Source: Spiroplasma tabanidicola
GTDB taxonomy: Bacteria; Bacillota_I; Bacilli_A; Mycoplasmatales; Mycoplasmataceae
Length of the DNA: 64,000 nucleotides
Assembly: GCF_009730595.1 (NCBI RefSeq)
Contig: NZ_CP046276.1
Coordinates: 930,001-994,000 of the forward strand
Direction: 5' to 3'
This document shows, one piece after another, positions 52,401 to 58,238 of this stretch (positions are counted from its first letter, which is position 1; each line of letters begins with the position of its first letter). Both the position numbers and the translations under genes were made by a program. The notes beneath the pieces were generated by a model. It had not been told where the DNA came from. It ran no database searches and worked only from the letters and a program-made list of their open reading frames with translations.

Positions 52401-53287
52401 TTAAAAAGGTACTTTCTCCATACGAATTTCGTATGGAGTTTTTTTATGTTTCAACATAGGTCTAACATAATTATAAAAATCAATATAATCTGAAATTATT
52501 GTATAGATATTTGAATAATTTAACTCTTTTATTTTATAAGTATAAATACATTCATTTTTTATTGTTCCAAAAAAAGATTCGCACGCTCCGTTATCAGGAG
52601 AGTTACCTCTTTTTGACATGAATATACTTATCTTGTTTTCATCTCATAAACTTTTTCAAGTTTCATTTGTATAAGGACTACCTTGATCAGAATGAATAAT
52701 ATCAGGAGCGCCTCTCTTTTTGATTGCAAAAAATAAGGTTTGTATAACATAATTTGCCATTAGGACTGTTAGATAATTTTCAAACAACAATTTCTGAATT
52801 ATATAAATCTTTTATAACAGATAAATATGCATTTCCTGAGGCTGTCTTTATGCAATTTACATCTGTAACTCATTTTTGATTTAAACAATCTGCATTGAAA
52901 TTCCTATTCAATAAGTTTTCATATCTCAAAGGACAAGTTTTGTCATATTTTGGCACTCTTTTTTTTCGAAATGCTTTTAAATTATTAATTTTCATATATC
53001 TATAAACTACTCATGGTTTTAAGTTTTGATTAAAATATTTGTTTAAAAGTAAAGTTATCACGTTGTAACCTAAACGTTTTTTAAACAAATAAAAAATAAA
53101 TTTGATTTTTATAGCAAGAACTCGATTGTAGTTTTTATTTATAGGTTTTCCACTTTTTAGTCATTTTAAATAACCAAATCTTGAATCGCCTAAATATTTA
53201 CAAATTAATGTTAAAGTAAACTTTTTAGAACAATTAAAAATAGCGAAGTACTTTTCCTTAGTTGTCTTCGCCAAATGCTTTTTTTAG
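52401..53287 (-). pseudogene. Transposase OrfB of the second IS3-family element, frameshifted
   Basis: 5' part encodes EKYFAIFNCSKKFTLTLICK, YVITLLLN-like and VVYRYMKINNLKAF, and KWVTDVNCIKTASGNAYLS with the first catalytic Asp. An extra base near 52750 shifts the frame; the second part reads GAPDIIHSDQGSPYTNETW (second Asp) and FMSKRGNSPDNGACESFFGT (Glu). The frame ends with the stop at 52401. All catalytic residues survive but no single frame carries them. Confidence 0.8.
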
Positions 53288-53654: not shown

Positions 53655-54623
53655 TTATTTTTTTTTATGATGTTTTAAAAATGCTCTTCCGCCTTCTGTT
53701 AAAATTCTTCCGGTTCAACCTTCGCCATCAACTTTAGAAAGTTCTTCATTTACTTTATATATCCTTGCGTCTAGAGCATCTAGGGATGAAACTATAATTG
53801 CCTCTAACATGCTTGGTTCTACTGGAGATCCAAATTCATGCTTACCGTGACTCGAGAGTACTATATGTTGCAATTTAACACTTTCTTCATATTCTTTTTC
53901 CGAAAGTTTTAAACTATTTGATGCATGACTTATGAAAGCGCTTCCAATTGTTATATGGCCTAATAGTTTTCCTTCATCCGTATAATCTGATGCATTTTTG
54001 CCTTTCATCTCAACAATTTTTCCTATATCATGTAAAACAGCTCCACAATAAACTAATTCTCAATCAACATTGGCATACTTATAAATATCTTTCAAAGAAA
54101 TAGCTCCTTTTAATAATGAAAAACTATGTCAAAATAATCCACCTAATACATTATGGTGAATTGATGTTGCTGCTGGATAAGTTTTAAATTTTTTTTCATT
54201 ATCTTTTATAATTTTTAAAGTAATTTTTTTATATATCGGATTTTTCAACTCTTCAATAGTTTTTATAAGCCAATTATAATGTTTATCTATATTTAAAGGG
54301 GCTGATATGAAAAAATCGCTCTGATCAATACCGTATTTGTTAAATTCTTCTTCAACTATTATATGGTATTTACTAATTTTAAGTTGTAATTGTTTACGAT
54401 ATAAACTGATTAATCCTTCTACTTTTATAATAGATCCTTCTTTAATTATTTCTTCATCTTCCGGATCACAATTTCATAATCTAGCTTCAATTCTACCCGT
54501 TTTATCAACTAAATAAATTATTAAATAATTTGCACCATTGTTACCAGTGGAAACTGACACTTTTTCAACTCTAGCTATAAAATCAATACTTTTGGAATCA
54601 CTCTTAATTTCGTTAATTCACAT
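53655..54623 (-). CDS. yhaM: 3'-5' exoribonuclease YhaM-like, OB plus HD domain
   Basis: 322 residues with UGA-Trp. N-terminal OB fold (IDFIARVEKVSVSTGNNGANYLIIYLVDKTG) and a C-terminal HD domain: AATSIHHNVLGGLFWHS, AVLHDIGKIVEM with the HD pair, and HIVLSSHGKHEFGSPVEP. YhaM trims RNA 3' ends and is conserved in Gram-positives. Start ATG TGA ATT (MWI) at 54623 after GGTAAAT. Single gene between the IS and the terminator of the 54.7-kb gene. Confidence 0.92.
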
Positions 54624-54687: not shown

Positions 54688-56856
54688 TTAAATTAATAAT
54701 CCTGGGTTTGAAATTAAACTTGTAAACTCTTTACCAAAATTTATTGCATCATTTAGATTTATTACATTTGAGTCATAAATAATTGTCACCATAACGTAAT
54801 TTGACAATATCATATCCCCTTTTAAACGAGATTGATTATCCCCAATTGAAATTGACAATAAAACATCTTCATTAAGTTGTATATTTGAAGAAATGATATT
54901 AAAGTGTGATAAATCAAATAATACTACTTTACTTAATTTTTCACTTATTTTATTTTTTTCAACTTCCATAGCTATTTCCAATATTGAGTTTTTTTCATTT
55001 ATTTTTACATCAACAAAATTAAAATTATCTTTAATATTTTTGTAAACTGATACTACTTGCTTTTTAAATAAACCTATATTTTTAAAATTTGTTAAAATTA
55101 AAGCTAGTGCTTTTAAATAAAAACTATTTAAATTTAAAATTATGCCTTTATCCAAAATAGAATCATACATAATAGTATGTAAATTCAATAATGCAGTAAT
55201 ATCAGCTTCAAAACTAATAGTATTTGCTTTTCTTAATTCCTTAGAATTGTCTATTTTTTTAGAATTAACTTCTTTTTTTTCTAAATTAACTAATTGATTT
55301 TTTGCTTTTAAAAAGTCTTCTCTCAATAATTCAAGTTCTTTTTCGATGCCACTAATTATTACATCTTTATTTTCAACGCTACTATCTTGATCTTCTATTT
55401 CTTCATTAATTACTACAGTTTCTTCTAAAACTGCAAAAGCAGATAGTTCTTCAATAGAGTCATCATTTTGTTTTAGCAACTCATCTGTTTCAAAATCTTT
55501 AGTAATTGCGTTGTTTATTTCTTTATTTATTTGACTATAATCTTCGTTAATTTTAGAAAAATCTTGTTTTATTTCACTAACTTCTTCAATCGAATAACTA
55601 CTTTTTACAATATTTAACTTTTGATTTACTTCTTCTTGTTGTTGAAATTGAGATAAAAACTGAGAACTTTCAACTTTTCTTTGCAACTCTGTTTCACTAA
55701 ATTCTGTTTTATTTTTTTCTGCTTGATCATTAGAATTTTCTTGAACTAATTCATTTAAATTAATTTCTACTTTTTCTTGATTTGAGAGCTTATTTTCATA
55801 CTTAGATGTTTTTTCATTTTTCTCATTACTATCTTTATTAAAAAAGTCATTATTAATTTCTTCTATAACTTTTGAGCTTGATTCTTCTTTTTCAATTTCA
55901 GGTTTAAATAAATTTAAATTTTTTAATTCTTCTGTAACCCCATCTGTCTCAATGGGTTTATTATTAATATATTCATTTGCACTTTTTTTTGTATCACCAA
56001 TACTTCTCGGCATATTATTTGTATAATCTACTTCTTTTTGTTTTTCTTTTTTATCATCTAAGTTGTTGCTAAACAAAAAGTCATTATTAATTTGATCTAG
56101 TGATTGAGTTTTTGAAATCTCAGTTAAACTTTCTTTGCTTTTTAAAGCAAAATTATTTAATTCTTGAGTTAAACTATTTGTTTCGATTGGTTTTACAACA
56201 ATATCTATTTTTTCATTAATTATTACTTTTTTATTTTCTTCGATAATCAAATCCTTATTATTGTGCTCATTTTGAATATTAGTTTTGTTTAAAAAATCTT
56301 CATTTAATTGCTCTATTGCATGAGTTTTTGAAACCTCAATATCTGTTTCTTTTTTTAAAAACTCAAGACTTTCAAGTTCTTTAGTGATGTTACTAGTTTC
56401 GACTGGTTGATTTAAATTAGTATTATTTTCGTGTTTAATTTCTTTACCAATACTTTCTGGCAATTTATCAGAATAATCAATTGTATGAGTCAATACTTCA
56501 GTATTATTTAAGTTTATATCCATTTGAACTTCATCTAATGTTTCATCTAAAAAACCAAAATCAGTTAAAGCATCTTTTAAAGTATCACTCATTTCAGAAG
56601 GTCTTCTTAAAATAGTTTCTAATTCTTTATTAGAAATAATATCAAAAATGGTATCTCCATGAGACACTATCAAAGAATCAATAACATATACATTTCTTAC
56701 AACACCATCAATTGGTGATTCTAAACTAATTCTTTCAAGTTGAGTTGATATTTGAGCTAAAATGTCACCTTTGTTTACAGGTTGGCCATCTTTTACAAAT
56801 ATTTTTTCAATAATTCCTTTGTATTTTTTTGCATTCTTAAATTTTATTTTTTCCAT
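54688..56856 (-). CDS. Long E2-like pseudo-acyltransferase without lipoyl lysine
   Basis: 722 residues. Residues ~10-75 form a lipoyl/biotinyl-like hammerhead (IFVKDGQPVNKGDILAQI, SLESPIDGVVRNVYV), but the lysine of the DK turn is replaced by Leu40 (ISTQLERIS). Residues ~125-340 hold three imperfect repeats of ~60 residues with PxET-xxx-T-x-EL and NxDF cores. A long acidic, disordered stretch and a coiled coil follow. The C-terminal ~160 residues look like an E2 acyltransferase domain (FGKEFTSLISNPGLLI) lacking the DHR catalytic motif. So it is probably a structural, non-catalytic relative of PDH E2. Start MEKIKF at 56856 after AGAAGG. Confidence 0.7.
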   Translation of the reverse strand: MEKIKFKNAKKYKGIIEKIFVKDGQPVNKGDILAQISTQLERISLESPIDGVVRNVYVIDSLIVSHGDTIFDIISNKELETILRRPSEMSDTLKDALTDFGFLDETLDEVQMDINLNNTEVLTHTIDYSDKLPESIGKEIKHENNTNLNQPVETSNITKELESLEFLKKETDIEVSKTHAIEQLNEDFLNKTNIQNEHNNKDLIIEENKKVIINEKIDIVVKPIETNSLTQELNNFALKSKESLTEISKTQSLDQINNDFLFSNNLDDKKEKQKEVDYTNNMPRSIGDTKKSANEYINNKPIETDGVTEELKNLNLFKPEIEKEESSSKVIEEINNDFFNKDSNEKNEKTSKYENKLSNQEKVEINLNELVQENSNDQAEKNKTEFSETELQRKVESSQFLSQFQQQEEVNQKLNIVKSSYSIEEVSEIKQDFSKINEDYSQINKEINNAITKDFETDELLKQNDDSIEELSAFAVLEETVVINEEIEDQDSSVENKDVIISGIEKELELLREDFLKAKNQLVNLEKKEVNSKKIDNSKELRKANTISFEADITALLNLHTIMYDSILDKGIILNLNSFYLKALALILTNFKNIGLFKKQVVSVYKNIKDNFNFVDVKINEKNSILEIAMEVEKNKISEKLSKVVLFDLSHFNIISSNIQLNEDVLLSISIGDNQSRLKGDMILSNYVMVTIIYDSNVINLNDAINFGKEFTSLISNPGLLI

Positions 56857-56945
56857 AAACACTTAGCCCTTCTCAATATAAAAATGTGTTTCGCCCAAAA
56901 CACTACTTTATTATTTTATATCAATTTAATAATCTTTAAAGAATT

Positions 56946-58238
56946 TTAAAAAATTTTTTCAAGATAATTTTTTATTATTAACATGCTGTTTTCATATATA
57001 TAGTCATACTTTTCAGTTTTTGTGTCAAATTCTTTATCTACTTTGACAATACCCATATTTGCTTTCATTGGTTTTAATTTTTTTAGCTTTTTATTTGTTA
57101 TATAGTTTGTTAATGCACCTAAAATAGTTTGATCAGGAAAAGGAATAAACTTTTTATTTTTAAACTCAGAATATAAAGCAAAGAAAACAATAAATGCAGA
57201 AGCAAATGATTCTATATATCCTTCTACACCCGTTACTTGACCTGCAAAATAAACTTTTTTATTTCTCATTACTTGTAATTTTTTATTCAAGATTTTTGGT
57301 GAGTTTATATAAGAATTTTTATGCATAACACCATATCTTGCAAACTCAGCATTTTCAAGACCAGGTATTAACTGAAATACTCTTTTTTGTTCAGGTCAAG
57401 TTAAGTTAGTTTGAAATCCTACAATATTATATAAACTATCAATAGCATTATCTTTTCTAAGTTGAATAACTGCATATGGTTTATTATTTTCGTGTTCTAA
57501 TCCATTTGGAGACATAGGTCCATTTATAAGATTTTTTTTAGATTGAATAGCTATTTGTTCAATAGGCTGACATCCTTTAAAAAAAATTTCTTTTTCAAAA
57601 TCTTTTAATTTAACTTTCTGAGCATTTATCAAATTAATATAAAAATTTTCAAACTCATGTTTATTTAGAGGTGCACAAATATAACTATTATCATTTGAAT
57701 GTCTTGAACTATAATAAACTTTTTTAAAATCAATAGAATCTTTTTTGATTATTGGAGAAGATGCATCTAAATAAAATAGTTTTTGATTACCAACAACTCT
57801 ATCTATTTCTTTTTTAAATTCATCACTAATCAAAGGTCCACAACATATTACATAAATTTTATCTGCATCCAATATTTTTAATTCTTCATTAAAAACTGTT
57901 ATATTTTTTTGTTCTCTTATTTTTTTATCCACTAGTTTTGAAAAACTAATTCGATCAACCGCTAAAGCGTCATCGCTAGGTATTTCAGTTAGATATGCAC
58001 ATTTCAAGATAAATGAGTCTAATTGCTCTAATTCTTTTTTTAAAATTCCAACTGCATTTTGTGTAGACTTACTTCTAAAAGTATTTGAACAAACCAATTC
58101 TGCAAATGTATCTAATTTTTGAATCTCATTTTTTTCAATATTCTTTTTTTCATATAAATTAACTTTAATTCCCTTTTGTGCTAATTGATAAGCTAATTCA
58201 CAACCAGCTAATCCAGCACCTATAATATTTACTTCCAT
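56946..58238 (-). CDS. trmFO: Methylenetetrahydrofolate-tRNA-(uracil-5-)-methyltransferase TrmFO
   Basis: 430 residues with UGA-Trp. Rossmann start VNIIGAGLAGCELAYQLAQKG, ELVCSNTFRSKS with its Cys near the active site, YVICCGPLIS, and near the C terminus VYFAGQVTGVEGYIESFASA. TrmFO uses FAD and methylene-THF to make ribothymidine at tRNA position 54. This folate-dependent route is typical of Gram-positives and Mollicutes. It follows metK by 40 nt and precedes the E2-like gene. Confidence 0.95.

Follow-up and report, generated by a model that had tools for sequence, protein, structure and literature searches.

An E2-derived protein family without lipoyl lysine or catalytic histidine in Spiroplasma and its relatives, probably a non-enzymatic scaffold

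The Spiroplasma tabanidicola DNA analysed here (64,000 nucleotides, referred to as the window) encodes an E2 relative, pE2a, which by its sequence lacks the residues that an E2 normally uses for catalysis and for carrying lipoyl, and which does not need PDH. Our preferred explanation, to which we assign a probability of roughly 0.7, is that pE2a is an E2 turned into a non-enzymatic multivalent scaffold; the plainer statement that it is a non-enzymatic scaffold is the safer of the two, and we consider it highly probable. An E2 relative stripped of both lipoylation and catalysis was also what the original prediction, made from the window alone, had proposed, and the family supports this: among 37 members (36 extracted homologues and the window member), none has a lysine in the attachment column, where L, M, V, G, R, N, S or F is found instead, and none has a histidine in the catalytic column. 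The statement that no function had been described agrees with our finding no description of pE2a in the open-access literature, in which the Spiroplasma work on E2 or dihydrolipo proteins covers only the true PDH E2.

The coordinates first given for the gene (54688-56856) are correct, and its strand is minus (Table 1). Its open frame extends to a GTG (54688-56862), and the AGAAGG ribosome-binding site has a spacing that is compatible with this start as well, but the ATG start fits most homologues, whose N termini begin with MEKIKF. The genome has a size of 1.28 Mb and reads TGA as tryptophan (code 4), since TrmFO, MetK, and similar frames of the window are whole only under this code. On the minus strand the gene order is MetK, TrmFO, pE2a, and YhaM, with Hint on the opposite strand; next to the Hint gene, two adjoining frames (52401-53274) resemble, by eye, a split IS3-type transposase. 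YhaM is noted as a neighbour of pE2a, and its membership of a system with pE2a is a candidate one only.

Table 1. Positions of pE2a, its parts and neighbours in the window, and of pE2b elsewhere in the same genome
Feature	Coordinates	Strand	Details
pE2a gene	54691..56856	-	722 aa coding; stop 54688-54690; alternative GTG at 56862 gives 724 aa
Lipoyl-type N-terminal domain, residues 1-76	56629..56856	-	Pfam Biotin_lipoyl 4e-7, Biotin_lipoyl_2 3e-10
Conserved segment after lipoyl domain, residues 77-110, DTLKxxL...FGFL	56527..56628	-	P86, T92, L93, L97 invariant in window genus
Acidic, probably disordered linker, residues 111-527	55276..56526	-	93 D/E, 51 K/R; net negative in 37/37
Linker repeat 1: PVET, ITKEL, LNEDF	56287..56487	-	self-alignment, motif positions
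Linker repeat 2: PIET, LTQEL, INNDF	56071..56229	-	self-alignment, motif positions
Linker repeat 3: PIET, VTEEL, INNDF	55822..56037	-	self-alignment, motif positions
C-terminal E2 CAT domain, residues 528-722, without catalytic His	54691..55275	-	profile vs PDB E2 cores 9e-18
YhaM-type 3'-5' exoribonuclease, next gene downstream	53655..54623	-	NCBIfam PRK13480 1.5e-69
TrmFO, upstream neighbour	56946..58238	-	Pfam GIDA 1.6e-82
pE2b, outside the window	1131311-1134352 (L126:6809-9853)	-	1014 aa; DQRIIDAAEAG for DHRxxDG

In its general build pE2a resembles PdhC (E2; PF00198 and PF00364), with an N-terminal lipoyl-type domain, a flexible linker, and a C-terminal acyltransferase-type (CAT) domain, and the relationship is one of profile homology. 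At the lipoyl turn, Leu40 (56737-56739) occupies the position of the attachment lysine, as had been predicted: the hairpin reads ISTQLER in pE2a versus VETDKVNS in the true E2 of the same genome and in a second lipoyl protein encoded next to it, so that STQLER stands for ETDKxx. Positive controls were these two proteins in the lysine comparison and real E2s in the histidine comparison. The long acidic linker of the prediction is likewise present, and from its composition and fast evolution it is probably disordered. Its PxET and NxDF repeats are real, with a self-alignment score of 182, whereas 40 shuffled versions score no higher than 105, but their spacing of 72-78 aa (PVET/PIET/PIET at residues 151, 223, and 301; NxDF at 185, 257, and 335) gives a pitch of ~75 residues rather than the ~60 originally proposed. 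Short peptides are also strongly enriched, with 28 occurrences of [VIL]T.EL vs. 1.8 expected and ~20 of the DSxTxEL type (DS[ILV]TxEL) vs. 0.1 expected. Other carriers of the latter were sought with a strict DNA pattern of the DS[ILV]TxEL peptide, and this pattern, detected in four genomes, is confined to pE2a in each of them. Repeats and motif are weak, decayed, or absent in the S. citri-type genus g8 and are thus not essential to the basic function of pE2a.

The predicted C-terminal acyltransferase-like fold without DHR was borne out as well. YDSN (54766-54777, in the stretch YDSNVINLN) takes the place of the DHR of DHRxxDG, and the pE2a family profile matches solved E2 cores with an E value of 9e-18. 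PF00198 is matched by 32 of the 37 members, at 4e-4 by the window member alone and at 6.5e-45 by the best homologue. Neither of the outcomes named beforehand as contradicting the prediction was seen, as E2 and lipoyl matches are present by profile and every homologue is without a lysine at the turn. The fold gives weaker support for the E2 relationship: E2 cores make up all top Foldseek matches of the window CAT model, which is a low-confidence monomer built from a three-row alignment (pLDDT 53), and a single-sequence AlphaFold model of the whole protein reaches a pLDDT of 32. Differences from PdhC go beyond the two missing residues, as none of the 37 members has a match to the peripheral-subunit-binding domain (PF02817), and the pE2a CAT domains group together (support 100/99, with long branches flagged), separate from the true E2s that these genomes encode and from a second family, pE2b. 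On this tree, the pE2a family is of single origin.

The distribution of pE2a was assessed in 60 genomes of the family that includes the window genome, Spiroplasma phoeniceum, and S. poulsonii, together with 238 genomes from other families of the order. Matches of at least 146 bits were obtained in 39 of the 60 family genomes, among them the degenerate copy of G054, and a further, divergent copy with unchanged gene order is present in G024; in all, pE2a is intact in 39 genomes and degenerate in one. The G024 protein (L079:5775-8006) is very divergent, with 743 aa, a long coiled-coil-like middle, and no lysine at the lipoyl turn. In G054 (L082), the gene is a decaying pseudogene whose N-terminal part is gone and which has a frameshift near the C terminus; this genome is also without PDH E1 and lipoate ligase. 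The best match in the 238 genomes from other families was at most 93 bits, which is the level of true E2s. A profile search of genome contigs with the window-genus alignment returned no match, and the same search with the g8 alignment matched S. phoeniceum (two records) and S. poulsonii.

In a strict protein search, the second dead E2 family, pE2b, was present in precisely those 40 genomes that carry pE2a. Like pE2a, it combines a dead CAT domain with a lipoyl-like N terminus and a long middle, but its CAT domain is far closer to true E2s (PF00198 9e-65) and forms a separate clade on the CAT tree, it has a size of ~1000 aa with a very long low-complexity middle, and no sequence relation between the linkers was noted. 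The full-length orthologues examined share the DQR-type change with small variations, and the lysine of the lipoyl-like hairpin is lost in nearly all of them, the window's genome (LDDKS) being an exception. In genus g11, which lacks pE2a, pE2b is short (533 aa in L131 of G029, 656 aa in L132 of G036) and its lipoyl-like domain is gone. Together, the identical 40-genome distribution and this shortening suggest that pE2a and pE2b work together.

Conserved gene order could point to a different role for pE2a, namely that of an RNA-decay scaffold that would, much like the scaffold arm of RNase E, be a multivalent partner of YhaM. Almost every genome with pE2a, in several genera, has the gene directly upstream of yhaM; in the window, the gap is 64 bp. 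However, YhaM is encoded in all 60 family genomes, including those without pE2a, and the enzyme therefore does not need pE2a. In G018, G019, and G053 the two genes are no longer adjacent, and the MetK-TrmFO-YhaM-Hint block is conserved with pE2a cut out, which indicates general synteny; the MetK-TrmFO-YhaM order minus pE2a is seen at most examined loci of the genomes without MreB, all 18 of which retain YhaM. Such a role is thus improbable in our estimation.

As an E2 derivative, pE2a might also be an accessory subunit of PDH that co-assembles with PdhC and tunes the composition of the core. Besides the common ancestry, this would have a precedent in E3BP/protein X, a dead E2 paralogue within the mitochondrial PDH core (PMC10156792), and in g8 the pE2a gene is located ~4-5 kb upstream of lplA-pdhA-pdhB-pdhC. 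In the window genome, by contrast, the separate true pdhC whose presence was to be checked is encoded at 762701-763384 (motif DHKVIDG), ~220 kb from pE2a. E3BP also has an inactive CAT domain, but it keeps its E3-binding domain and its lipoyl lysine and acts inside PDH, whereas pE2a has neither and persists in genomes that lack PDH E1-alpha or an intact true E2. This INDEPENDENCE from PDH is seen in G048, G053, G056, and G057, which retain intact pE2a and pE2b. PDH E1-alpha gives only background scores in G048, G053, and G057 and is truncated in G056; a true E2 was not found in G048, G053, and G056, and the copy in G057 carries stops. A lipoate ligase is missing from G053 and G057, and the one in G048 is broken. 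The 85% complete genome G025 was left out of this PDH-loss count. Conversely, 16 of the 18 genomes without MreB keep PDH E1, all of them without pE2a. The occurrence of pE2a without PDH and of PDH without pE2a is the strongest evidence against an accessory role, which we rejected on this distribution and regard as very improbable.

Selection has acted unevenly along the protein. In eight homologue pairs with a CAT dS above 0.1, the CAT domain has dN/dS values of 0.01-0.17, the lipoyl domain of 0.03-0.33, and the linker of 0.17-0.45, making the CAT domain the most constrained part of pE2a; the corresponding values in the PDH-less lineages are uninformative, as the pairs are too close. Judged from these rates, the family is under purifying selection, and the low values in the CAT and lipoyl domains indicate that both "dead" domains are kept by it. 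The constraint on the CAT domain would also fit another enzymatic or ligand-binding job, for instance as a CoA or acyl sensor with a purely structural lipoyl domain, but a shared active site is hard to reconcile with a catalytic motif whose loss took a different form in every clade (DSN, NQN, NEA, and NCE) and a CAT identity of 20-30% between genera, and we give this little credence.

Within the scaffold explanation, the CAT domain would still trimerise or build a larger core, alone or with pE2b. From such a core, several flexible acidic arms would extend, each tipped by a lipoyl-type docking domain, and the T-x-E-L and NxDF peptides on these arms may bind a putative partner. The polar hub PopZ of Caulobacter combines an oligomerising C-terminal domain with an expanded acidic disordered linker (PMC9512792). 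The likeness of pE2a to PopZ is one of layout, by analogy only and without homology, and the oligomerisation domain is helical in PopZ, compared to an E2 fold for the putative one of pE2a. The working mode would be PopZ-like, with an oligomeric core, an acidic disordered linker, and a client-binding end, but built from an E2. As a dead E2 paralogue, pE2a would be a bacterial counterpart of E3BP that no longer belongs to its enzyme complex at all.

Variability in the distribution of MreB offers a hint as to the client. Fibril and MreB1-5 are the known filaments of Spiroplasma swimming, and the polar "dumbbell" and the regulators of this machinery are poorly defined. MreB-type matches number 6-8 per genome in the window genome, as in the spiroplasma-like family members. 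Strong MreB matches are present in 42 of the 60 family genomes, and pE2a is found in 40 of these 42 and in none of the remaining 18, with the same counts for pE2b. The two MreB-bearing genomes without pE2a both belong to g11, and together with the degenerate copy in G054 they speak against such a tie. In a tree of neighbouring genes, from which most g8 genomes and some others were left out owing to missing data, the MreB-less members with a placement fall into a single clade (support 1.0). The co-loss of MreB and pE2a is therefore a single event of little statistical weight, and this co-loss on one branch suggests a link between the two. Against this link, a protein with the size or annotation of pE2a is not listed in the S. 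eriocheiris tables for the ribbon and Triton-insoluble proteomes (PMC5289999, PMC9582952), but pE2a may be a minor or detergent-soluble ribbon partner. The fibril gene was not located by a PF01048 match in the genomes searched. Of the "scaffold or cytoskeletal" role originally put forward, the scaffold is the best supported part, and the cytoskeletal part is suggested by the loss of MreB on one branch and finds no counterpart in the ribbon proteomes.

As a further, weaker step, the absence of pE2a and pE2b from the clade without MreB leads us to propose a client from the MreB/fibril helical-motility or polar apparatus. We consider a tie of pE2a to an MreB-dependent apparatus possible, at somewhat less than even odds. 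More tentative still is the proposal that duplicated PDH cores gave rise to paired non-enzymatic scaffolds, pE2a and pE2b, that organise an MreB/fibril swimming machine or a polar anchor; if true, a metabolic multienzyme core would have been recruited to bacterial cell architecture. As both proteins were lost together with MreB, are not obligate parts of PDH, and are conserved and apparently unstudied, they lend themselves directly to knockout and localisation.

These findings also call for caution in genome annotation, as the genes that match PF00198, and for which an annotation as "dihydrolipoamide acetyltransferase" is therefore likely in these organisms, include two dead families. Second E2-type matches also occur outside the family of the window genome, in G067 and G078 (family f9, genus g20), where the frames of 570-589 aa encode long E2-like proteins.
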